Positions 1 to 19,890 of a DNA stretch of 23,869 bases are shown in pieces. The stretch's first letter is position 1; each line of letters opens with the position of its first letter. A program made the translations under genes and the position numbers. Source of the stretch: an uncultured Actinomycetes bacterium (GTDB lineage Bacteria; Actinomycetota; Thermoleophilia; Solirubrobacterales; 70-9); contig CAMLQY010000027.1 of the NCBI GenBank assembly GCA_946482365.1, positions 1 through 23,869 on the forward strand, written 5' to 3'. The notes under the pieces were generated by a model, which saw nothing but the letters and a program-made list of their open reading frames with translations, was not told the DNA's origin and searched no databases.

Positions 1-3000
1 TCGGAGTCGCACCACTCGCGCTCGCTGCCACCCGGCAGCAGCTCGCCGCGGACCAGGGTGCCGGCCCGCTCGAGCTCGCGCAGCGCCGGAGTCGGGTCGA
101 CCCCGTAACGGGTCGCCAGCTGGGCGGTCGGGAAGGGGCCGTGCGTGCGTGCGTATCGGCGCACCAGGGCGAGGAGTGGGTCGGGGTGCTCGGCGAGGAA
201 GCTGTCCGGCAGCCCGGCGGGCGGCGGCACCCCCAGCGCGTCGCGGTACATGCCGGCGTGCTCGGCGGCGATGTAGCGCTCCTCCCCGTTGACCCGCACG
301 AGGGCGGCGCGGCGCTCGGCGACGAGCTTCTCCAGCATCGAGGCGGCGGAGTAGCCCTCGGCGACGCGCTCGGCGCACTCCTCCGCCGTGAGGTCGCCGA
401 GGTTTCGCAGCACCTGCTGCAGGGCGTCGCGGTCGCCGGCGCGACCGGCCTCGGTGCGGTGCTGGAGCTGGGCCTCGACCTCCTCGAGCGCCTCGGGGTC
501 GATCAGCTCGCGCAGCTCCTCCTGGCCGAGTAGCTCGCGCAGCAGGTCGCGGTCGAGGGCCAGCGCCGCGGCGCGGCGCTCCGCGTTCGGCGTGTCCCCC
601 TCGTACATGTAGGTGGCGACGTAGTCGAAGAGCAGCGAGGAGGCGAAGGGCGAGGCGGTGGGGGTCTCGACCTCGACCAGGCTGAGCTTGCGCGAGTGCA
701 GGTCCGCCAGCAGCTGCTTCAGGGCCGGCAGGTCGAAGACGTCGCGCAGGCACTCGCGGTAGGTCTCGAGCACGACCGGGAAGCGGGGGAAGTCCCGCGC
801 CACCTCGAGCAGGCTCTGCGCCTTGAGGCGCTGCTGCCAGAGCGGCGTGCGCTTGCCCGGGTAGGCGCGGGGGAGGAGCAGCGAGCGGGCCGCGTTCTCG
901 CGAAAGTGCGAGCCGAAGAGGGCGGAGCCCGAGAGCTCGCCTACGACCAGGTCCTCCAGCTCGTCGGGCTCGACCAGGACCAGGTCGGCCGGCGGCGGCA
1001 CGTCGGCGTCGGGGAGGTGGACGACGATGCCGTCGTCGGACCAGATCGCGTCGGCCTCGAGCTCGCGCTCGGCGCGGATCTTGGCCGCCAGCGCCAGGCC
1101 CCAGGCGGAGTGGACGCGACCGCCGTAGGGCGAGAGCACGCAGAGCCGCCAGTCGCCGATCTCGTCGCGGAAGCGCTCGACCACGATCGTCTCGTCGGAG
1201 GGGACGACGCGCGTCGCCGCCTGCTGCTCGCGCAGGTAGGCGACCAGGTTCTCGGCGGCGCGGCGGTCGAGGTCGTACTCGGAGGCCAGCTCCCGGGGCT
1301 CGCGCGAGACCGCCTCGCGGGCGAAGGCGCCGATCGCCCGGCCCAGCTCCGCCGGCCGGCCGATCCCGTCGCCCTTCCAGAAGGGGACGGCGCCGGGCAC
1401 GCCCGGGGCGGGCGTGACGATGACGCGGTCGCGGGTGATCTCCTCGATCCGCCAGGTGGTCGCGCCGAGCAGGAAGGTCTGGCCGGGGCGGGCCTCGTAG
1501 ACCATCTCCTCGTCGAGCTCGCCGACGCGGCGGCCGTCGGGCAGGTGGACGCCGTAGAGGCCGCGGTCGGGGATCGTGCCGGCATTGGTGACGACCAGCG
1601 AACGGGCGCCTTTGCGACCGTGCATCGTGCCGGCGGCCCGGTCCCAGACGATCCGCGGGCGAAGCTCGGCGAAGCGGTCGGAGGGATAGCGCCCGTCGAG
1701 CATGTCGAGCACGTTCTCGAGCTGTTCGCGGGAGAGCTCGTGGAACGGCTCGCTCGCGGTGACGAGCCGCTCGACCTCGTCGACCTCCCACTCGTCGAGC
1801 GCCGCCATCGCGACCAGCTGCTGAGCGAGCACGTCGAGCGGGTTTTGCGGGATCACCGTCTCCTCGATTGCCCCCTCCCGCATCCGCTTGGCGACGACCG
1901 CACACTCCAGTAGGTCTGCCCGGAACTTCGGAAAGATTCGTCCCCGCGAGACCTCTCCAAGCGAGTGCCCGGCGCGGCCGACCCGCTGCAGGCCACGACT
2001 TACCGACTTCGGCGACTCGACCTGGATCACGAGATCCACCGCCCCCATGTCGATCCCCAGCTCCAGGGACGACGTCGCGACGAGGCAGGGAAGCTGGCCC
2101 GACTTGAGCATCTCCTCGACCACGGTCCGCTCCTCGTGACTCAGAGAGCCGTGGTGGGCGCGGGCTATCTCGGGGGGGCCGGGGTCGGGTCCGTCGGGCC
2201 CGCTATCGCGGGGAGTTCCCGCCGGACCCGACCCCGGCCCCCCTAGTTGCTCGGTCGCCGGAAGCTCCTGAGGAGGTTCGTCGGCGTTGAGCTCGTTCAA
2301 ACGCTTGGCGAGGCGCTCAGCTGCTCTGCGGTTGTTGACGAAGACGATGGTCGACGTGTGCTCTCTGACGAGCTTGAGGAGCTCGGGGTAGATCGCGGGC
2401 CAGATCGAGCGGACGTGGGCCAGGGGCTCTCCGTCGGCGGGATTGCCGTCGCCGTTTGGGAAAGCTGGGGCTCCCGGTTCCGCCATGTCCTCCACCGGCA
2501 CGACGATCTCGAGGTCTAGCTGCTTGGCGACGCCGGCGTCGACGATCTTGCACTCCCGCTTCGGCCCGACCAAAAATCGAGCTATCCGCTCGAGCGGGCG
2601 CTGAGTCGCGGACAGCCCAATCCGCTGCAGGGCCTCGGGGGAGGGGTCGCCGGAGCCTCCCCGCTGTTGCTCCGCCGACCCCTCCCCCGAGGCCCCCAAC
2701 ACCAAATGCTCCAACCGCTCGAGACTCAGCGCCAGATGAGAGCCCCGCTTGCTTTGCGCCACCGCGTGGATCTCGTCGACGATCACGGCCTCGGTCGTCG
2801 CGAGGATCTCGCGCACCCCCGAGGAGAGCATCAGGTAGAGCGACTCGGGGGTGGTGATGAGGATGTCGGGCGGGGTTTTGCGCATCGCCCGGCGTTCGGC
2901 CTGGGAGGTGTCGCCGGTGCGCAGGCCGACCGAGATCTCGGCCCCGATCCCCCGCAGCGGCGCCCGCAGGTTGCGCTCGATGTCGTAGGAGAGCGCCTTC

Positions 3001-3266
3001 AGCGGCGAGACGTAGACGAGGCGGACGCCCTGGCCCCGCTCCGGCAGGCGCGAGAGGCGGTCGATCCCCCAGAGGAAGCTGGCCAGCGTCTTCCCCGACC
3101 CGGTCGGGGCGCAGATCAGCGCGTTGGCGCCGCCGGAGATCGCCTTCCAGCCCCCTGCCTGCGCCGGCGTCGGGCCCTCGAAGGAGGCTTCGAACCAGCG
3201 CCTGACGGGATCGCTGAACGGCGCCAGCGGATCGGATTCCGCACCTGCTTTCGGCTTGGTGGCCAA
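1..3266 (-). CDS. lhr: Lhr-family ATP-dependent DNA helicase, C-terminal end beyond the window
   Basis: Superfamily 2 DNA helicase of the Lhr type, an ATP-driven translocase linked to DNA repair. About 1,088 residues are visible and the stop lies beyond base 1; Lhr proteins usually run about 1,400-1,500. Seen in order: Walker A CAPTGSGKT (res 52-60), DEIH box (164-167), motif III SAT (219-221), then in the second RecA domain HHGSLS, SSLELGID and the arginine-finger region QRVGRAGH. A winged-helix and Lhr-core region follows. The start is TTG at 3264-3266: no in-frame ATG or GTG lies upstream, and a TAAGAT box sits 7 bases before it, so the mRNA is probably leaderless. Two palindromes inside the gene (2173-2243 and 2630-2695) add Gly/Pro/Ser-rich stretches at res 342-365 and 191-213, where I recall family members being short. 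The frame stays open through both, so the gene looks intact. Confidence 0.93.
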   Translation of the reverse strand, partial: MATKPKAGAESDPLAPFSDPVRRWFEASFEGPTPAQAGGWKAISGGANALICAPTGSGKTLASFLWGIDRLSRLPERGQGVRLVYVSPLKALSYDIERNLRAPLRGIGAEISVGLRTGDTSQAERRAMRKTPPDILITTPESLYLMLSSGVREILATTEAVIVDEIHAVAQSKRGSHLALSLERLEHLVLGASGEGSAEQQRGGSGDPSPEALQRIGLSATQRPLERIARFLVGPKRECKIVDAGVAKQLDLEIVVPVEDMAEPGAPAFPNGDGNPADGEPLAHVRSIWPAIYPELLKLVREHTSTIVFVNNRRAAERLAKRLNELNADEPPQELPATEQLGGPGSGPAGTPRDSGPDGPDPGPPEIARAHHGSLSHEERTVVEEMLKSGQLPCLVATSSLELGIDMGAVDLVIQVESPKSVSRGLQRVGRAGHSLGEVSRGRIFPKFRADLLECAVVAKRMREGAIEETVIPQNPLDVLAQQLVAMAALDEWEVDEVERLVTASEPFHELSREQLENVLDMLDGRYPSDRFAELRPRIVWDRAAGTMHGRKGARSLVVTNAGTIPDRGLYGVHLPDGRRVGELDEEMVYEARPGQTFLLGATTWRIEEITRDRVIVTPAPGVPGAVPFWKGDGIGRPAELGRAIGAFAREAVSREPRELASEYDLDRRAAENLVAYLREQQAATRVVPSDETIVVERFRDEIGDWRLCVLSPYGGRVHSAWGLALAAKIRAERELEADAIWSDDGIVVHLPDADVPPPADLVLVEPDELEDLVVGELSGSALFGSHFRENAARSLLLPRAYPGKRTPLWQQRLKAQSLLEVARDFPRFPVVLETYRECLRDVFDLPALKQLLADLHSRKLSLVEVETPTASPFASSLLFDYVATYMYEGDTPNAERRAAALALDRDLLRELLGQEELRELIDPEALEEVEAQLQHRTEAGRAGDRDALQQVLRNLGDLTAEECAERVAEGYSAASMLEKLVAERRAALVRVNGEERYIAAEHAGMYRDALGVPPPAGLPDSFLAEHPDPLLALVRRYARTHGPFPTAQLATRYGVDPTPALRELERAGTLVRGELLPGGSEREWCDS
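2173..2243. repeat. Long GC-rich palindrome inside lhr, in frame
   Basis: Arms 2173-2198 and 2218-2243 are inverted repeats matching at 25 of 26 positions (mismatch at 2194/2222), with a 19-base loop. The loop holds its own small stem, CCCGC then TATC then GCGGG. On the minus strand it encodes a Gly/Pro/Asp-rich insert (res 342-365) just before the conserved ARAHHGSLS motif of the helicase. The reading frame is kept. It resembles protein-coding palindromic elements known from other bacteria, but I do not recognise the family. Confidence 0.85.
2630..2695. repeat. Second GC-rich palindrome inside lhr, in frame
   Basis: Arms 2630-2654 and 2671-2695 are inverted repeats matching at 24 of 25 positions (mismatch at 2650/2675), with a 16-base loop. 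It encodes a Gly/Ser/Glu-rich insert (res 191-213) between the DEIH box and the SAT motif, directly before QRIGLSAT. Both palindromes share a TCGGGGG start and a GGGGTCG core in their left arms and a CCCGCT string in or beside the loop. This hints at one family but is too little to prove it. Confidence 0.85.
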
Positions 3267-3273
3267 CCCACCG

Positions 3274-3309: not shown

Positions 3310-4986
3310 GTGCAAACCTGGCGCACCTTCTCGCGGCTGATCGACGGCTCCGGGCAGATGGCCGCATGGGGGCTCGGCCTCTCGGTCGCCCAGGCCCTGT
3401 CCCTGGTGCCGATCGCGCTCCTCGTCCGCTCCGCCTTCGACGACGCGATCCCCTCGGGCGACAGCGGCCAGCTGGTCGCGCTCGGCGCCGGGATTCTCGG
3501 GCTCTACCTGCTCAGCCTGGCACTCGGCCTCGGCGGCCGCTACGCCGTCCTGCGAGTGACCAAGCCCGCCGTCGCCCGGATCCGGTCCGAGCTGATCGGC
3601 CACGTCGTCTGGCTGCCCAGCTCCTTCTACGACTCCACCGACAGCGGCCGCCTGCACTCGCTGATCGTGCAGGACACCGAGCGCCTCGACACGATGGCGA
3701 AACACCTGCTGGCGGTGGTCATCCCGTCCCTCGGCACGGCGGCGATCCTGCTCGTCTCGCTGGTCGCGATCGAGCCGCTGCTCCTCGTCGTGCTGCTGGT
3801 CGCGATCCCGCTGCTGCTCGGTCTCAGCCGGCTTCTGCGAAAGACGATGCGCCATCGCCTGCGCGCCTGGCAGGAGGCCGCGGACGGATTCAGCGCCAGC
3901 GCCCTCGCCACCCTGCGCTCCGCTTCCCTGATCAAGGTGAGGACGGCGGAGGAGCAGGCGATCGCGGAGGGCGCGGCGCGCTCGGCGGAGCTGGCCGAAG
4001 CCGGCAAGCGGGTCGCCTGGGTCCAGCAGGCATACGCGCTGATCCAGGTGGCGCTGGGAGGCGTCGCCGGGGTGATCGTGCTGATCGGCGGCGGCCTGGC
4101 CGTCCTGCACGACTCGATGTCGATCGGCGACCTGATCGCCTTCATGGCCGTGCTCGCGCTGGCCCGCGGTCAGCTCAACTGGGTGGTCGCGACCCTTCCC
4201 GACATCCTCAACGGCCTGGCGGCGATCGAACGGATCGACGAGGTGCTGGCGAGGACCGAGACCGAGCCCTACTCGGGTGGACGGCCGCTCGACGTGCGCG
4301 GCGGCCTCGCCTGGGAGGGGGTCACGTTCGGCTACGCCGCGGACGAGCCGCCCGTGCTCGAGCAGGTCTCGCTCGAGGTCGAGCCCGGCGAAACCCTGGC
4401 GATCCTCGGCCCCACCGGCGCCGGCAAGACGACGCTGGTGGCGCTGCTGCTCGGCCTCTACCGGCCCTGGTCGGGAACGATCCGGGTGGACGGGGTGCCG
4501 CTCGAGGAGATCGACGTGCGAGCGCTGCGCCGGCAGGCCGGCGCGCTGCTGCAGGAGGGGACGGCGATGCGCGGGACCGTCGCCGCCAACATCGGCTTCG
4601 GCCGGCCGGAGGCATCTAGGGAGGAGGTGGAGAGGGCGGCGACGCTTGCCGTTGCAAGCGACTTCATCGCCCGGCTCCCCGACGCCTACGAGACCGAGAT
4701 CGGCGACGACGGCGTGCGGCTCTCGGCCGGGCAGCGGCAGCGAATCGCCCTCGCGAGGGCGCTGCTGGGCTCGCCGCCGCTGCTGATGCTGGACGAGCCG
4801 ACCAGCCACCTCGACCCCGACACCGCCGAGGCCGTGCTCGACAACCTAGCCGCGATCGAGACGCGCCCGACCCTGCTGCTGGTCACCCATGACCCCCTGG
4901 TCGCGCAGCGAGCGGACCGGCTGGTCGAAGTCCGCGGCGGACGGGTCGAGAGCCCGTCGCCCAGCCTGCTGGACGGCAAGCGGTGA
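3310..4986 (+). CDS. ABC exporter, fused permease and ATPase
   Basis: A 558-residue half-transporter of the MsbA/MDR exporter type, expected to work as a dimer in the cytoplasmic membrane and pump a lipid, peptide or drug-like substrate outward. The N-terminal ~310 residues form the membrane domain, with hydrophobic stretches near res 20-40, 55-80, 135-170 and 240-290. The nucleotide-binding domain follows: Walker A GPTGAGKT (367-374), Q-loop Gln415, signature LSAGQ (471-475), Walker B LLMLDE (491-496) and H-loop His527. All catalytic residues are present. The GTG start at 3310 is set by the divergent lhr gene and the -10 box just before it. Its stop overlaps the next start (GTGA, 4 bases), so the two genes are coupled. 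No peptidase C39 domain is present. Substrate unknown; the partner nucleotidyltransferase recalls exporters of modified-peptide clusters. Confidence 0.9.
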   Translation: MQTWRTFSRLIDGSGQMAAWGLGLSVAQALSLVPIALLVRSAFDDAIPSGDSGQLVALGAGILGLYLLSLALGLGGRYAVLRVTKPAVARIRSELIGHVVWLPSSFYDSTDSGRLHSLIVQDTERLDTMAKHLLAVVIPSLGTAAILLVSLVAIEPLLLVVLLVAIPLLLGLSRLLRKTMRHRLRAWQEAADGFSASALATLRSASLIKVRTAEEQAIAEGAARSAELAEAGKRVAWVQQAYALIQVALGGVAGVIVLIGGGLAVLHDSMSIGDLIAFMAVLALARGQLNWVVATLPDILNGLAAIERIDEVLARTETEPYSGGRPLDVRGGLAWEGVTFGYAADEPPVLEQVSLEVEPGETLAILGPTGAGKTTLVALLLGLYRPWSGTIRVDGVPLEEIDVRALRRQAGALLQEGTAMRGTVAANIGFGRPEASREEVERAATLAVASDFIARLPDAYETEIGDDGVRLSAGQRQRIALARALLGSPPLLMLDEPTSHLDPDTAEAVLDNLAAIETRPTLLLVTHDPLVAQRADRLVEVRGGRVESPSPSLLDGKR

Positions 4987-6130: not shown

Positions 6131-7804
6131 GTGCCCGACTCTCCCCGCTCCGAACAGCAGATCGCCTGGGTCATCCTGGGCGCGGCGATGGCCGTCGCGG
6201 TCGCCTTCCTCTTCTGGATCCAGCGGGACCTCGCCTTCGCCGACGACTCCTTCAACTGGATCACGCTGGCCGGTCTGGGCCCAACCAAGGCCGTGATCGA
6301 GCCGTACGGGGGCCACCTGATCCTCACCCCGATGCTGATCTACAAGGGGACCCTGGCTGCATTCGGCAGCAGCTACACAGCGCTGGGAGTCATCCAGGTC
6401 GCGCTGCTGCTCGTCCTCAGCGGCCTCATCTACGAGTACGGGCGTCGCCGCCTCGGCCCGCTGCTGGCGCTTCCCGCCGCGATCGCGATCCTCTTCCTCG
6501 GCTCCTCCTCGAACGTCCTGATGCAGCCGATGCTCGGCATCCAGTTCCTCTGCGCCCTGGTTCCCGGGCTGGCGGGCCTGCTCGCGCTCGAACGCGGCGA
6601 CCGCCGCGGCGACGTCGCCGCCTGCGTCTTCTTCTCGCTGGCCGCGGTCGGCTTCGAGATGGGCCTCGCCTTCGCGTTCGGCGGGGCGGTGGGGATCGCC
6701 CTTCGCGAGGACCGCCGGCGCCGGGCCTGGATCGTCGCGATCCCCTTCGCCATCTACGGCATCTGGCGGATCTGGGCCTCGCAGTACGGCGAGTCGGGGG
6801 TGGAGCTCTCCAACCTGCCCTGGATACCCGCCTACGCGGTCGACAACCTCGGGGTCGTCGGGGCGTCCCTCTTCGGCCTCTTCTTCTGGGTCGGCCACGG
6901 CCAGCTCACCTACCTGAAGCTCGTCGGGTTCGACCTCAGCCACCTCGGCGAGGGCCTGGTCCTGCTCACCGCGGAGCTGTTCGCGGTGGTGCTGGTGATC
7001 CGCAGGATGCTCCAGCGCGGACCGATCCCCCCCACCTTCTGGGTCGCCGTTGCCGTCCTGGTCGCGATCTGGATCGAGCAGGGCCTCGCGCTCGCCCCGA
7101 ACCGCACCCCTGGAGAGGTCCGCTACGTCTTCCCGGACACGGTCGTCTTCCTCCTCGTCGCGCTCGAGTGCGCCCGGGGCATCCGCGCCACGCGGCTGGC
7201 CCTGATCGGAGCCGCGGCGCTGACCATAGCCGCGGTGATCGGCAACATGCCGCGATTCAAGGAAGGCAGGGACATCCTGGTCGAATACACGACCAGCGCC
7301 CGCGCCGCGATGGCGGTGATGGAACTGGACGGCACCAACATGCGACCGGACTTCAATCCCCCCACGGAAGCGGCGGAAGCGTTCACGCCCGGGCGCGAGA
7401 CCTATATCGGCCCGGCCTCGCTGGCGGCGATCACCGCGAAGTACGGGCGCTACGGATATACGCTGCCGGAGCTGCGCTCGCGGCCGGAGGAGGAGCGCCG
7501 CACCGCCGACATCGTCGCCGCCCGCGGCATGGGGCTGGCCCCGGTCAGCGCGCGCGGCGGCGACTCCGACTGCAGGACGAGCGGGCCGGACGCCACGGTC
7601 AGGCTGCCCCGCGGCGGAGCGCTGCTGAGCGCGGAGAGCCCGTCCCCCCTCCTGCTGCGCCGGTTCGCCGACAACTACGCGGCCGAGATCGGGCAGTTGC
7701 GGCCGGGGGTCGCGGTCGCGGTCAGGATCCCGCGCGACGCCTCCCGGATTGCCTGGCACGCATACGCGCCGAGCGGCGGCCGGCTGACCGCCTGCCGGCT
7801 CTGA
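6131..7804 (+). CDS. Multi-spanning membrane protein, GT-C glycosyltransferase-like (paralogue 1)
   Basis: A 557-residue integral membrane protein with about 10-11 hydrophobic segments (first at res 11-30, last near 357-371) and a soluble C-terminal domain of about 180 residues. I do not recognise a named family. Three things suggest a GT-C glycosyltransferase using a polyprenyl-phosphate sugar: an acidic pair just after the first membrane segment (Asp38-Asp39 in FADDSFNW), a conserved EPYGGHLI loop (57-64), and a late PGEVRY motif (327-332) like the RY motif of Pmt/ArnT relatives. The C-terminal domain is bracketed by Cys481 and Cys555, which could form a disulfide outside the membrane. The protein is clearly paralogous to the one at 18178, with the same cysteine spacing. 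GTG is chosen as start because TAGTCT lies 9 bases upstream. The neighbouring DPM1-like GT2 could supply its donor. Confidence 0.75.
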   Translation: MPDSPRSEQQIAWVILGAAMAVAVAFLFWIQRDLAFADDSFNWITLAGLGPTKAVIEPYGGHLILTPMLIYKGTLAAFGSSYTALGVIQVALLLVLSGLIYEYGRRRLGPLLALPAAIAILFLGSSSNVLMQPMLGIQFLCALVPGLAGLLALERGDRRGDVAACVFFSLAAVGFEMGLAFAFGGAVGIALREDRRRRAWIVAIPFAIYGIWRIWASQYGESGVELSNLPWIPAYAVDNLGVVGASLFGLFFWVGHGQLTYLKLVGFDLSHLGEGLVLLTAELFAVVLVIRRMLQRGPIPPTFWVAVAVLVAIWIEQGLALAPNRTPGEVRYVFPDTVVFLLVALECARGIRATRLALIGAAALTIAAVIGNMPRFKEGRDILVEYTTSARAAMAVMELDGTNMRPDFNPPTEAAEAFTPGRETYIGPASLAAITAKYGRYGYTLPELRSRPEEERRTADIVAARGMGLAPVSARGGDSDCRTSGPDATVRLPRGGALLSAESPSPLLLRRFADNYAAEIGQLRPGVAVAVRIPRDASRIAWHAYAPSGGRLTACRL

Positions 7805-10400: not shown

Positions 10401-12331
10401 CGCCGGGAAGGTTAGACCAAATCGCGGCGGTAGCCCCAATAGCGCTGATCGTCGGCCTCGCCCTTGCCGGAGGCGGCTTCGAGGTGGGTCCCCGGCACAT
10501 CGCGGCCCTTGCGGTCTGGCTGGTCGTGGTTGCCCTGCTCGTGTTCGGGGACACCTCGGCGACGCAGCTGAGACGCCCGTTCTACCTCGCCGCCGGCTCG
10601 GTCCTGGGTCTGTCGCTCTTGTCCGCACTTTCGTCCTTTTGGTCGGGCTCAGTCGAGCTGAGCGTTATCGAGGCAGACAGGGTGCTCGTCTACCTCGGCG
10701 TCTTCCTTGCCGCCTTCCTCCTCGCCCAAACCGGCGAAAGGCGCCAACGTTTCGCTGAAGGCCTCGCCGTTTCGCTGGCGGTCGTCGCCCTGCTGGGGCT
10801 GGCCAGCCGGCTGATCCCGCACGTCCTGGAGGTTTCCGGCTCGCTGGGGACCGGGCCCAGGCTGCGCTACCCCCTCGGCTACTGGAACGCCAACGGGGCG
10901 GTCTTCGGCATCGGCGTCGCCCTGCTGCTCTGGTCGAGCCGGCAGGCGACCACGGCGGTCATGCGCTGGCTCTCGGCGGCGGCGATCCCGGCGCTGCTGC
11001 TGGCCCTCTACTTCACCTACTCGCGCGGCGGCCTGCTGGCCCTGCTCGTCGGAGCTGGATGCCTGATCGCCCTCTCCCGCGACCGCCTCTGGCTCGGCCT
11101 GACGCTCGCCATCGGCGCGATCGGGGCGCTTCCCGCGGTGCTCGCCGTACAGGACCGCCGGGACCTCGCCGACAACCTCCCCACCCAGGCGGCAGTCGAC
11201 CAGGGCGTCACCGTGCTGCTGATCCTGCTCGCCGGCACCGCCCTCGCGGTCCTCCTCTTCGCGGGGCTGCGGAGGTGGGAGCGGCAGGAGGGGCTGCTGG
11301 CCGGCAGGGCGCTGGAGCTCTCCCGCCACCCCGCCTTCCTGAAGGGGGTCGCCGCGTTCCTCGCGATCGCAGCGATCGCGCTGACGGCGGCGGTCGGCGG
11401 GCGGGCCTGGGACCAGTTCTCCAGCTCCGACATCCAGTTCCCCGACCAGCCCGAGAAGCACTTCTCCCAGCTCAACGGCGCCGGCAGGCACGACTTCTGG
11501 CGGGTCGCGACCGACACCTTCGGCGAGGAGCCGCTCCTCGGCACCGGCGCGGGCACCTACGAGTTCGCCTGGGAGGAAAAGCGCTCGATCGAACTTCCGG
11601 TGCACGACGCCCACTCCCTCTACCTCGAGGCCTTCGCCGAGCTGGGAGTCCCGGGCGGCATCCTCGTGCTCGTGCTGGTGGGCTCTTTGCTCGCCGCCGG
11701 CTTCGCCGCCTGGCGGTACTCCCCGTACCCGCAGCGCGAGCGCTACGCGGCGCTCTTCGCGGCGATGCTCGCCTTCGCGGTCTGCGCCGCCTTCGACTGG
11801 TTCTGGGAGCTGGCCCTGATCGGCGCCGTCTTCTTCCTCGCCGGCGGCGTCGTGGTCGCCGCCCGCTGCGCCCAGCTGAGCGCGATCGCGAGGGCCAGCA
11901 ACGGGCACGCGGAGAACCGCCGCTACGGGCTCGCCGTGGCCGGCATCGCCGTCGCCTGGGTGGCCGCGGTCGCCCTCGTCGGGCCCCTGCTCGTGGACCG
12001 GGAAATAGACGCCAGCCGCGACTCCGCCGCCGAGGGGGACATCGCCGGCGCGATCGACCACGCCAAGCGCGCCCGCTCGATCGAGCCCTGGGCCGCGTCC
12101 CCCTACGTCCAGCTGGGGCTGCTGGCCGAGCTGCAGGGCGAATACGAGACGGCCGCGATCGAATTCAGCCACGCGATCAACCGCGAGAACCACAACTGGC
12201 AGTGGTTCTACCTGCGGTCCAAAGTCGAGCACGCGGCCGGCGACGAGGCGGCGGCCGCCGCGGACATGCGGCAGGCCAGGAAGCTCAACCCGCGCGCCGA
12301 GTGCCTGCGCGCAGGATGGAATTGCGGGTGA
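10322..12331 (+). CDS. O-antigen polymerase/ligase family membrane protein with C-terminal TPRs
   Basis: Wzy/WaaL-type integral membrane protein, about 669 residues from the ATG at 10322, which polymerises or ligates lipid-linked glycans outside the cytoplasmic membrane. It has about 12 hydrophobic segments. The Wzy_C region lies roughly at res 385-465: RHDFWRVATDTF, PLLGTGAGTYEF and VHDAHSLYLEAFAELG, with the family's conserved Arg and His. After the last membrane segment (near res 540-555) come two or three TPR-like helices (about 575-660; AIDHAKRARSIEP and YETAAIEFSHAI). The start is uncertain: 10322 overlaps the divergent surface-protein gene by 79 bases, GTG at 10484 would lose the first membrane segment, and TTG at 10250 overlaps further. 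No ATG, GTG or TTG lies in frame from the first hydrophobic segment to 10484. The stop overlaps the next GTG (GTGA). Confidence 0.85.
   Translation: MRVEPTLTTGRERGPRPRPHGGALQSSPGRLDQIAAVAPIALIVGLALAGGGFEVGPRHIAALAVWLVVVALLVFGDTSATQLRRPFYLAAGSVLGLSLLSALSSFWSGSVELSVIEADRVLVYLGVFLAAFLLAQTGERRQRFAEGLAVSLAVVALLGLASRLIPHVLEVSGSLGTGPRLRYPLGYWNANGAVFGIGVALLLWSSRQATTAVMRWLSAAAIPALLLALYFTYSRGGLLALLVGAGCLIALSRDRLWLGLTLAIGAIGALPAVLAVQDRRDLADNLPTQAAVDQGVTVLLILLAGTALAVLLFAGLRRWERQEGLLAGRALELSRHPAFLKGVAAFLAIAAIALTAAVGGRAWDQFSSSDIQFPDQPEKHFSQLNGAGRHDFWRVATDTFGEEPLLGTGAGTYEFAWEEKRSIELPVHDAHSLYLEAFAELGVPGGILVLVLVGSLLAAGFAAWRYSPYPQRERYAALFAAMLAFAVCAAFDWFWELALIGAVFFLAGGVVVAARCAQLSAIARASNGHAENRRYGLAVAGIAVAWVAAVALVGPLLVDREIDASRDSAAEGDIAGAIDHAKRARSIEPWAASPYVQLGLLAELQGEYETAAIEFSHAINRENHNWQWFYLRSKVEHAAGDEAAAAADMRQARKLNPRAECLRAGWNCG
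10409..10414 (-). promoter_or_regulatory. -10 box for the surface protein-glycosidase operon
   Basis: Minus-strand TAACCT ends 8 bases before the ATG at 10400. It lies in an A/T-richer patch and fits the leaderless pattern. If the divergent polymerase gene starts at 10322, this promoter sits inside its coding region. Confidence 0.55.
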
Positions 12332-17001: not shown

Positions 17002-18147
17002 CTAGCTCGGAGCGCTCTCGGGCAGCGGCCTCGTGGGGGCCTCGAGGCGCCGCCGCGGCCGCTCGCGAGGCCCGTTGAGGATCCTCCCGATCGCGGTGTA
17101 GCGGACGAGCACGGGATAGGTGAGCAGCGAGAAGGCCAGCGACCCCGCGGTGAGCAGCAAGAACTGGGGGCCGGTGCCGAGGGCGGTCACGCTGATCAGC
17201 CCGAGGAGCAGGACCATCGCCGGCATGTGCGAGAGGTAGATCCAGTAGGAGGAGTCGGCCATGTAGCGCAGAGCGGGGCGCGGGCGGCCGAGGTAGCGGT
17301 GCGCGAGGCCCACCAGCGCGATCAGGCTGGTCCAGGTCGCGACCGCGTAGATCAGCAGGCCGGAGCCGTGCACGAGCGGCTGCGAGCCGTGAACGGAGTT
17401 GTGGAAGGTGAAGAGGAGCGCCGCCGGCAGCGTCGCGGCAAGCGCGCAGGCCGTCCAGCGCCAGGCGTTCCTGCCGGCATCGACGACGAGCCCCCCGTGG
17501 GCACGGAGGGTCGCCCCGAGGGCGAAGAAGAGGGCATAGTAGGCGAGCACGGGCGGGTTGGGGACGAAGGTGTCGGCTTCCGGCGTAGCCATCCAGATCT
17601 CCGCCGGCCAGATCATCAAAGCCGTCGGCACGGCGAGGAGGGCGATCCCGCCCAGCGGGCTGGCGATCAGTCCGCGGAAGCGCTCTCCCCCTGCGCGCAG
17701 GAGCCGGGGCGCGAACAGGTAGAGCGCCACCGCCGCCCCGTCGAGGATCAGCAGGTACCAGAGGAACCAGAGGAAGCTCGGCTTGAAGGCGAAGGGGCTG
17801 CCCTCGGGGACGCCGGACTCGGCGGCCAGCACGATTCCCGTCTCCTGGGCCGCCAGCACCGTGAGCGGCACCAGCGTGACCAGCCCGAGCAGCAGGGGGA
17901 CGACGATGCGCACGGTGCGGTTGCGCACGGTTTCGCTCAATCCCTTGCGGCCGAGAAGGAGGACGAGGAAGAAACCCGACATCGCGAAGAAGAGCGGAAG
18001 GCGGAAGACGTGGACCACCCAGAAGATCACCGTCGCCCAGGCGCCGGGGTGACCGTTGACGGCCATCAGGCCGGCGGCGTGAACGGGGACCAGCAGCAGC
18101 ATCGTCGACGCACGCAGCGCGTCCATCGAGTGGATCCGCTCGGTCAC
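17002..18147 (-). CDS. Acyltransferase-3 family membrane protein
   Basis: A 381-residue integral membrane acyltransferase (Pfam Acyl_transf_3, OpgC/OafA-like without SGNH domain), which adds acetyl or succinyl groups to sugars during or after export. It has about ten hydrophobic segments across its length. Family marks: RIHSMDALRA at res 4-13, catalytic-type His23 in VPVHAAG, HVFRLPLFFAMSGFF (46-60), and the Arg pair in RNRTVRIVVP (77-80 region). The GTG at 18147 is chosen because TACCCT lies 7 bases before it and the divergent gene begins at 18178; a longer frame to 18366 would run through that gene. It leads a same-strand run with the GT4 and wecB genes. The likely target is the polysaccharide made by this locus. 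Confidence 0.9.
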   Translation of the reverse strand: MTERIHSMDALRASTMLLLVPVHAAGLMAVNGHPGAWATVIFWVVHVFRLPLFFAMSGFFLVLLLGRKGLSETVRNRTVRIVVPLLLGLVTLVPLTVLAAQETGIVLAAESGVPEGSPFAFKPSFLWFLWYLLILDGAAVALYLFAPRLLRAGGERFRGLIASPLGGIALLAVPTALMIWPAEIWMATPEADTFVPNPPVLAYYALFFALGATLRAHGGLVVDAGRNAWRWTACALAATLPAALLFTFHNSVHGSQPLVHGSGLLIYAVATWTSLIALVGLAHRYLGRPRPALRYMADSSYWIYLSHMPAMVLLLGLISVTALGTGPQFLLLTAGSLAFSLLTYPVLVRYTAIGRILNGPRERPRRRLEAPTRPLPESAPS

Positions 18148-18154
18148 GCGCCCA

Positions 18155-18160
18155 AGGGTA
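18155..18160 (-). promoter_or_regulatory. -10 box for the acyltransferase, leaderless
   Basis: Minus-strand TACCCT ends 7 bases before the GTG at 18147. It lies only two bases from the opposing -10 box of the gene at 18178, so the two promoters cannot both be occupied. Confidence 0.55.
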
Positions 18161-18162
18161 TG

Positions 18163-18168
18163 TAGTCT
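18163..18168 (+). promoter_or_regulatory. -10 box for the membrane protein at 18178, leaderless
   Basis: TAGTCT ends 9 bases before the TTG start. It shares GTAGTCTGCC with the promoter of the paralogous gene at 6131. The whole intergenic region is 30 bases. Confidence 0.6.
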
Positions 18169-18177
18169 GCCCGCGGT

Positions 18178-19890
18178 TTGACTGGGCGCCTCCGCAATCC
18201 CGACGCCGCGGGCTGGTTGCTGATGGCCGCAGCCGTCGCCGTCGCCGCCGGCCTCGTCTTCTGGCTCGAGCGCGGCCTCACCTACGGCTGGGACGAATTC
18301 GTCTGGCTCGAGCACGCCGGCCTGGTCGACGACCTGACCCTCTTCTTCCGTCCCTACGGCGGGCACCTGATCGCCTCCCCCTACTTCCTCTGGCGGGGGA
18401 TGTTGGAGCTGTTCGGCGCCAGCTTCACCGCCTTCGCCGTCGTCCAGGTCGCCGGGCTCAGCCTCCTCGCCACCCTCCTCTACGTTTACGCGAAGCGACG
18501 CGTCGGCCCGATCCTGGCGCTCGCGCCTGCGATCGTGATGCTCTTCCTGGGCTCCGCCTGGGCGGTCCTCCTCGAGCCGATGATGGGCATCCAGTTCCTC
18601 GCCGCGCTGGTCCCCGGGCTGGCGGCGATGCTGATGCTGGAACGGCGCGACCGGCTGGGGGACGCGGCCGCCTGCTGCCTGCTCTGCATCGCCCTCCTGG
18701 GCTTCAGCCAGGCCCTGCCCTTCCTCGTCGGCGCAATCGTCCTCGTCGCCCTGGACCCGGACTGGAAGCGGCGCCTATGGGTCGTCGCCGTCCCCCTCGC
18801 CGCGTACGGGGCCTGGCGGGTGTGGGCCTCCCAGTTCGGATCGACCGGCATCATCGCCTCCAACCTCCCCTTCCTGCCCGCGTACTTCGCCGACGCGCTG
18901 GCCGTCTTCAGCAGTGCCGTCTTCGGCCTCGCCACCCTGATCGCGGGGGGGCCCTGGACGATGCTCCGCCTGCAGTCGTTCTCGATCGGCTACCTGTCGG
19001 CGGGCATCGTCTTCACGGTGATCGAGGTGCTCGCGATCGGGGTGGCCTTCTGGCTGCTGCGCCGCCGCGGACCGATCCCGAAGACGCTGTGGCCGCCCCT
19101 CGCGATCCTGGTCGCCTTCTGGATGGAGCTGGGGGTCGTCCTCATACCGGGCCGCACCGCGGGGGAGTCGCGGTACCTCTACGCGGGGGTTCTCGTCCTG
19201 CTGCTGGTGGTCGTCGAGATGCTCCGGGGCGTGAGGACGACGCGCCTCACGGTGGCGATCGCCCTGGCGCTGACCGTTGCCGCGGTCGCCGGCAACCTGG
19301 CCCGGTTCCACGAAGGCCGCCAGGTCCTCTACGGGGTGCAGGAAGAAGCCGGGGCCTACACGGCCGTGATGCAGCTCGCCGGGAAGCACGGCGACCAGGC
19401 GTTCACGCCAAACGTCGATGCCCCGTACCTCGCTTCGAACGCGCTGCAGATGAACACGGGCCCCTGGCTGGAAGTGGTGGACCGCTACGGCTCCTCCGCC
19501 GACTCGATACCGCAGCTCCAGCGCCAGAGCGAGGAAATCCGCGAGAAGGCGGACGCGATCGCGGTCAAGACCCTCCGGCTCCGGCTCGTCCGCGCGGCTG
19601 CGGAGCCGGCGCGGCGATGCCGGCGAATCGGCGGCGGCGGCGCACCCACCCAGGTGGCCCTTCCCTCGGGGGGAGCCGTGCTGAGGCCCGCCCGCGACTC
19701 CGAGGTCGCCCTGCGGCGATGGGCGGATGACTTCGCCGCCGGGCTGGGCGACGCGCGAGGGGGGCGAGCGGTGGTCCTGCGCATCCCGGGCGACCCCAGC
19801 AACGTCCCCTGGCGGCTCAGCTTCGCCGCCGGCGGACCGGTCGAGGTCTGCTCGCTCCGAGGGGACGGCGCTGCCTCAGAAAGGCGTTAG
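18178..19890 (+). CDS. Multi-spanning membrane protein, GT-C glycosyltransferase-like (paralogue 2)
   Basis: A 570-residue paralogue of the protein at 6131, alike along its full length. Shared features: an acidic pair after the first membrane segment (Asp39-Glu40 in GWDEFVW), the PYGGHLI loop (59-65), MGIQFLAALVPGLA, ASQFG, RRRGPIP, the RY motif in AGESRYLYAG, and a C-terminal soluble domain bracketed by Cys481 and Cys558. That domain carries LPSGGAVL and LRRWADDFAA, matching LPRGGALL and LRRFADNYAA in paralogue 1. I infer a GT-C membrane glycosyltransferase fold; the family is not one I can name. TTG is taken as start because of the TAGTCT box 9 bases upstream and because it aligns with the other protein. 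It is divergent from the acyltransferase, and its last 15 bases overlap the convergent vapC. Confidence 0.75.
   Translation: MTGRLRNPDAAGWLLMAAAVAVAAGLVFWLERGLTYGWDEFVWLEHAGLVDDLTLFFRPYGGHLIASPYFLWRGMLELFGASFTAFAVVQVAGLSLLATLLYVYAKRRVGPILALAPAIVMLFLGSAWAVLLEPMMGIQFLAALVPGLAAMLMLERRDRLGDAAACCLLCIALLGFSQALPFLVGAIVLVALDPDWKRRLWVVAVPLAAYGAWRVWASQFGSTGIIASNLPFLPAYFADALAVFSSAVFGLATLIAGGPWTMLRLQSFSIGYLSAGIVFTVIEVLAIGVAFWLLRRRGPIPKTLWPPLAILVAFWMELGVVLIPGRTAGESRYLYAGVLVLLLVVVEMLRGVRTTRLTVAIALALTVAAVAGNLARFHEGRQVLYGVQEEAGAYTAVMQLAGKHGDQAFTPNVDAPYLASNALQMNTGPWLEVVDRYGSSADSIPQLQRQSEEIREKADAIAVKTLRLRLVRAAAEPARRCRRIGGGGAPTQVALPSGGAVLRPARDSEVALRRWADDFAAGLGDARGGRAVVLRIPGDPSNVPWRLSFAAGGPVEVCSLRGDGAASERR
19873..19885. 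repeat. 13-base direct repeat, copy 1, at the end of vapC
   Basis: GCCTCAGAAAGGC, identical to 20652-20664. It covers the vapC stop codon and the end of the convergent gene. The repeat is itself a short imperfect palindrome (GCCT and AGGC arms). Confidence 0.7.

Follow-up and report, generated by a model that had tools for sequence, protein, structure and literature searches.

Small hairpins that lie in many copies near the 3' ends of genes include REP/BIME elements with RAYT transposases, MITEs and SPRITE-like terminators. MITEs are recognized by a target-site duplication and by ends in common with an autonomous transposon, intrinsic (SPRITE-like) terminators by a hairpin that is followed by a T-run and located just after genes. 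Palindromes in frame within protein genes are best known from Rickettsia. As outlined in PMC10969869, RPEs are dispersed palindromic repeats of about 150 bp that form several families and occur both in intergenic regions and in frame in unrelated genes, where they are translated; in the account given by PMC6649704 their repeat identity is lost over time. The same account describes near-perfect coding palindromes in the mitochondria of Nematomorpha, with a dynamic pattern of gain and loss and with arms whose identity is apparently maintained by conversion, for which template switching has been suggested (PMC6649704). The footprint of a template switch, matched changes in the two halves of a stem together with an inversion of the loop, is outlined for rRNA and microRNA genes, with loop inversions reported there as rare in rRNA (PMC8794818). 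REP elements are extragenic palindromes for which a size of 20-40 bp is given in PMC3733652. In a literature search at the level of titles and the beginnings of abstracts we found no description of repeats such as the ones reported below for Solirubrobacter or Thermoleophilia, nor of in-frame palindromic insertions for actinobacteria.

The window analyzed here, a stretch of 23,869 nucleotides, carries two such palindromes within a single gene for an lhr-type helicase on the minus strand (1-3269, in a frame open to 3503) that runs off its left edge. The best NCBIfam match of the product is NF007284, with 1101.6 bits against a curated cut-off of 1496 for a protein that is cut by the window edge, and the closest solved chain is 7lhl_A, an ATP-dependent DNA helicase. 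Judged by Lhr, the closest relatives with a name are metagenome-assembled genomes titled Solirubrobacterales, Thermoleophilia or Actinomycetota, the best with 86% identity. Hairpin 2 (2630-2695) consists of two 27-nt arms with 26 of 27 positions (96%) complementary, the 5' arm in the reading direction of the gene at 2669-2695 and the 3' arm, a variable arm of the family introduced below, at 2630-2656. The 12-nt loop between them (2657-2668, minus strand) reads AACAGCGGGGAG and codes for part of the peptide EQQRGGS. It is the conserved core of the repeat family that we term family A, and the exact core CAACAGCGGGGAGG lies at 2656-2669 on the minus strand. The inverted repeat of 24 out of 25 bases with a 16-base loop in the initial annotation is this same hairpin, measured slightly shorter, and its placement in frame between the DEIH box and the SAT motif was correct, as the insert corresponds to about residues 192-214 of protein P0001, between DEIH and LSAT.

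Hairpin 2 is real and beyond chance. With hairpin scores of 24 and 23, hairpins 2 and 1 stand apart from the rest of the window, where no other hairpin exceeds 12, and the best hairpin in each of eight codon-shuffled windows reached at most 14. As RNA, hairpin 2 folds at -69.2 kcal/mol, compared to -40.6 +/- 3.7 kcal/mol for 200 dinucleotide shuffles (z -7.8). An Rfam search of positions 2000-3000 returned sub-threshold matches, mostly to microRNA models, and none at gathering score. The initial annotation had placed both inserts in surface loops. For site 2, the position of hairpin 2, this agrees with a gap in the alignment to 7lhl_A, while at site 1 a linker is present in the solved chain itself. 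A structure model places both inserts between a helix and a strand and backs the loop position weakly, at a mean pLDDT of 53, with both inserts below 50 and other long stretches (245-293 and 391-480) likewise below 50.

The suggestion that the palindromes represent a repeat family was borne out by the dispersal of the core across the genomes of relatives, sampled as one genome per species. Family A has the loop AACAGCGGGGAG, present in 51 of 79 copies, enclosed by the inner stem CGGCGGARC...GYTCCGGCG. Searching with the pattern CAACAGCN{0,4}GGAGGYTC, and with the same pattern read backwards as a control, we obtained 35 matches in six of ten relatives' genomes and none for the control. Among 61 genomes around G004, a set that overlaps the ten, the core was found in ten, and the control pattern gave four stray matches. 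In total, 79 copies of 55-76 bp were collected, retained at a hairpin score of at least 11. When this filter was omitted, 60 of 63 distinct copies with the exact core still had at least 14 of the 17 outer positions paired in the best of three registers; the exceptions were L206, a copy from a genome, and L224 and L225, which are viral contigs. Spread of the family by viruses was considered and rejected, as both exact-core matches in viral contigs were without a hairpin. The unfiltered recount also contained five occurrences of the exact core that were truncated at an edge, and in four cases (G011 contigs C21, C109 and C235, G008 contig C251) the core lies less than 10 nt from a contig end, as if the assembly had broken there.

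The stretches of G004 and G008 that were inspected (L111-L150, 722 kb) hold 127 hairpins of all kinds. Among them are further palindromic families with more constant arms, such as GTTGATGGGCCGAAAAC, CCCGGGCGCCTCATGGGGGTC, GGCCGTCTCGGCCACG and CGGTGTTCCTTACTTG. A longer type of 113-119 nt has private, matched arms of 20-21 bp around a middle of 71-77 nt that is seemingly related between copies (L118 at 3578-3691, 11625-11743, 11886-12004 and 18070-18186; L137 at 7446-7558). In L110, L136, L140, L142, L183 and L191, family A copies form oppositely oriented pairs separated by about 15-470 bp, an arrangement that recalls paired REP elements.

The arms of family A are private to each copy and nevertheless matched. 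No two of the 79 left arms are identical over 17 nt, a stretch in which 54 of the copies pair perfectly. At arm positions 9-24 the paired fraction is 0.964; reassigning right arms among copies lowers it to 0.482, with 0.527 as the highest value of 500 trials. Beyond the eleventh arm position most positions show all four Watson-Crick pair types, and a loose consensus among copies is found at the inner ones. Counted outward from the loop, pairing amounts to 92-99% from position 10 to 27, drops to 72% and 46% at positions 28 and 29, and the family A unit thus ends sharply at some 27-28 nt from the loop. Copies outside genes are the more perfect ones, with a mean of 0.26 mismatches in 17 positions versus 0.85 for genic copies. 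Cores are of two types, B with its stem continuous and A' with the stem interrupted by an internal loop. When assigned by an approximate rule on three bases, with orthologous copies counted separately, type B is more frequent in genes (16 of 28 versus 10 of 51; Fisher p 0.001).

Family A resides in frame in at least seven gene families. By a threshold on codon-position composition at both sides, rather than by annotation, 26 of the 79 copies are in frame in ORFs, with the core in the sense of the gene in 18 cases and against it in eight. The hosts are lhr (eight copies, mostly fetched as lhr was the query), cysS (six), prmA (four), MMPL (three) and cofGH (two), with single copies in an AlkZ-like gene, a gene for a biotin-protein ligase and the ORF of L113, which matched no family. 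Profiles name representatives of each of the other host families, and further members of cysS (L208, L209, L210, L214, L217) and MMPL (L142, L183) were assigned by similarity of their flanks to L135 and L121, respectively. The six cysS copies and the six DNA copies at lhr site 2 all carry the core in the sense of the gene and in one frame. Outside genes, 31 of 53 copies start no more than 40 nt behind the stop codon of a gene that shares the orientation of the core, compared to 15 of 576 random points, and 13 of 53 face a stop codon from the other side (8 of 576 random points), an orientation bias of 31 to 13. None of these 53 copies is followed by a T-run, taken as at least four T within 8 nt.

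Hairpin 1 (plus strand, 2173-2243) comprises 26-nt arms at 2173-2198 and 2218-2243 that are 96% paired around a 19-nt loop at 2199-2217 (fold z -8.0). Its centre, read on the plus strand and hence inverted with respect to the gene, matches the family A core in 14 of 16 aligned columns. Measured by shuffling against three core consensus forms, the match has p values of 0.003, 0.0095 and 0.0625; the form that most resembles hairpin 2 gave the highest of these, and none is corrected for the six comparisons made. Site-1 orthologues in L004 and L028 contain family A copies in the same inverted orientation, and the peptide type of hairpin 1 recurs in 38 of 121 Lhr proteins, as defined by a regular expression and with rough state classes at this site. 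The hairpin's own core had no match in 61 relatives of G001. Hairpin 1 is probably a diverged, inverted relative of family A. Of the initial claim that the two palindromes form one repeat family, the dispersed core in relatives carries the part that stands, and their similarity beyond G+C bias is likewise probable. The heptamers TCGGGGG and GGGGTCG that had been cited in its favour are misleading, as the arms are the variable part, and the argument instead rests on the similarity of the cores.

The lhr inserts are not ancestral, as short sites occur in many relatives, and among the close ones there are some with nothing there or with a different insert. In 35 of 57 more distant rows (L022-L079) the spacing between DEIH and LSAT is at its shortest, 38 residues over the matched stretch. 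Short sites exist among relatives, as do empty ones, which the initial annotation had proposed to look for: a short site 2 has about 8-9 residues after LERL, where carriers of the element have 27-37. Among 121 Lhr proteins, regular expressions assigned 77 to family A at site 2, 22 to a different insert, 10 to an empty site and 12 to other states, a narrower expression giving 58 rather than 77 for family A. On a FastTree phylogeny of the 121 proteins that left out the insert columns, at least 33 state changes are required for site 2 and at least 55 for site 1, part of which could be explained by exchange of lhr from strain to strain. In the lhr gene of G011 (L174) the element is missing from site 2 and the frame shifts there, which may reflect loss with a frameshift or an assembly fault.

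Two proteins among the rows nearest to the window protein, P0009 and P0021, have the other insert, here family 2, at both sites. The core of family 2 gave 28 matches in six of 61 genomes and none for the control, and 13 of the 28 copies are in frame in ORFs by codon-position composition. Eleven of these 13 genic copies are read in one frame, as PAGPVxAGDPPxxPVAKASSG (for example in L233, L243 and L248). Native arm pairs of family 2 fold at a mean of -56 kcal/mol versus -45 kcal/mol for exchanged ones, with 27 of 28 native copies below the exchanged mean.

Copies at the same site in different genomes allow the fate of the arms to be followed. Of 51 rows, two were neighbour pairs within one locus, leaving 49 cross-genome pairs that share members and are not independent. 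Arm identity is at least 0.78 in ten of them and at most 0.72 in 39, and these 39 fall within the 95% range of unrelated family A copies (mean 0.59, sd 0.09), so that these copies may have been re-inserted repeatedly with new arms. At lhr site 2 pairing is retained at an arm identity of 0.56-0.78 between genomes, compared to 0.62-0.77 for fourfold-degenerate sites of the same gene. Note that the arm values are the best of seven registers and hence inflated, as are those of the unrelated copies scored likewise, and that with their closeness to the level of unrelated copies they indicate arms near saturation, so that no rate is claimed. Four of the 49 pairs show an inversion of the core. For prmA, the copies of G004 and G008, opposite in core orientation, have an arm identity of 0.94, and the peptides read ISGETRR-NNSGE-VPASLPR and ISGETRR-NLPAV-VPASLPR; in cofGH of G002 and G008 the core is inverted at an arm identity of 0.78. 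Matched change in both arms between same-site copies is also observed, with re-insertion as the alternative account. Together, matched change and loop inversion fit the prediction for template switching as it is set out in PMC8794818, and from the sequences compared here the arms are probably kept matched by this process. Selection on the structure, or re-landing with new arms, could contribute as well. That the core is conserved beside drifted arms may point to selection acting on it or to copies of recent origin.

No target-site duplication was detected at the 79 copies, where direct repeats at the edges averaged 1.85 nt versus 1.82 nt (p 0.39). The search for a mobilizer or partner element covered PF01797, the Y1/RAYT transposase family, which was found in none of the ten carrier genomes, with the reservation that the assemblies may be incomplete, and in one of 20 genomes searched (G025), itself without the family A core.

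Taken together, we consider it likely that hairpin 2 is an RPE-like, dispersed and non-autonomous palindromic repeat whose arms drift and are re-matched by template switching, and which occupies a tolerated loop of Lhr. In the mechanism that we propose, a machinery acting in trans would have spread family A through a clade of Solirubrobacterales-like bacteria, with copies landing mostly directly behind stop codons and, for a third of those sampled, in frame where extra residues may be tolerated. After landing, the arms would drift, and during replication short template switches inside the hairpin would restore the match between them and from time to time also flip the core. The lhr insert would be a tolerated loop without function in the helicase. 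An account that we regard as unlikely has the arms written anew at every insertion: core and inner stem would be all that moves, and upon landing one arm would be templated on the other by fold-back, giving each new copy private and perfectly matched arms. It is in keeping with arms that differ in all 79 copies around a nearly invariant core, whose conservation would be explained if the copies were young, with the 39 same-site pairs at background similarity and with the very frequent state changes at lhr. It is difficult to reconcile with the ten pairs whose arms are recognizably similar, with the common sense and frame of the copies at lhr site 2 and in cysS, which would not be expected under repeated landing, and with the loose consensus at the inner arm positions.

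Quite improbable, in our judgement, is a selected functional structure of RNA or DNA that acts in 3'-end processing, in termination or as a protein-binding hairpin, with complementarity maintained by selection and the genic copies being misplaced. Pairing is kept in genic copies as well, presence is patchy even in close relatives, and no Rfam family reached gathering score in the window segment searched, and this has to be weighed against the clustering of non-genic copies behind stop codons with its orientation bias, their more perfect pairing and the conserved core. The narrower reading as an intrinsic terminator was rejected, as the T-run is absent throughout. Mobilization by a RAYT transposase (Y1/IS200-like), as for a REP-type element, was likewise rejected and retains little likelihood: small palindromes near gene 3' ends, several of them in inverted pairs, are what it would predict, but none of the ten carriers has a Y1 transposase, even if their assemblies may be incomplete, and the size of family A and its residence within genes are unlike REPs. 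That the palindrome is a chance product of a G+C-rich region or an artefact of assembly, for which the contigs ending inside a copy might be quoted, has next to no probability in view of the shuffle controls, of the same core at unrelated loci in ten genomes and of the same peptides in proteins from contigs of more than 1 Mb (P0003, P0016).

In a wider and more tentative view, which we regard as possible and rather doubtful, the hairpins would represent a type of mobile DNA in bacteria that has yet to be described: inheritance would extend to the short core alone, fold-back copying would supply or renew the long arms and leave every copy with a private, perfectly matched pair, and several families would compete for tolerant loops of housekeeping proteins and outpace the proteins themselves. 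At least two families occupy the same helicase loops here, and with at least 33 and at least 55 state changes on the tree of 121 proteins, insertion, loss and replacement become traceable in closely related lineages. Private yet matched arms would serve as a natural record of correction by template switching in bacteria and would make the origin of additional loops in proteins accessible to study.

Among known systems, family A has in common with REP/BIME elements, MITEs and SPRITE-like terminators that it consists of small hairpins, many of them near gene 3' ends. It differs from REPs in its length of 55-76 bp, in the 26 of 79 copies that are genic and in that no Y1 transposase was found in ten carriers, and from MITEs in the lack of a target-site duplication; with SPRITE-like terminators it shares the position after genes (31 of 53) and not the T-run (0 of 53). 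The likeness to RPEs, one of description and not of sequence, is that families A and 2 also occur both in frame in genes and outside them. Unlike RPEs, family A is only 55-76 bp long, is found in another phylum and has the core alone in common between copies, each of which has private matched arms, and its pairing stands at about 96%, whereas RPEs are described as losing their repeat identity (PMC6649704). Nematomorpha palindromes resemble the present ones as near-perfect inverted repeats in coding sequence with gain and loss and matched arms; in the account of PMC6649704 the arms code for conserved parts of proteins, whereas the hairpins described here are inserts with a common dispersed core. 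Template-switched hairpins are the product of a mutation process rather than an element, and with these the copies of family A share matched change in both arms and an inverted loop, observed here between copies at the same site.
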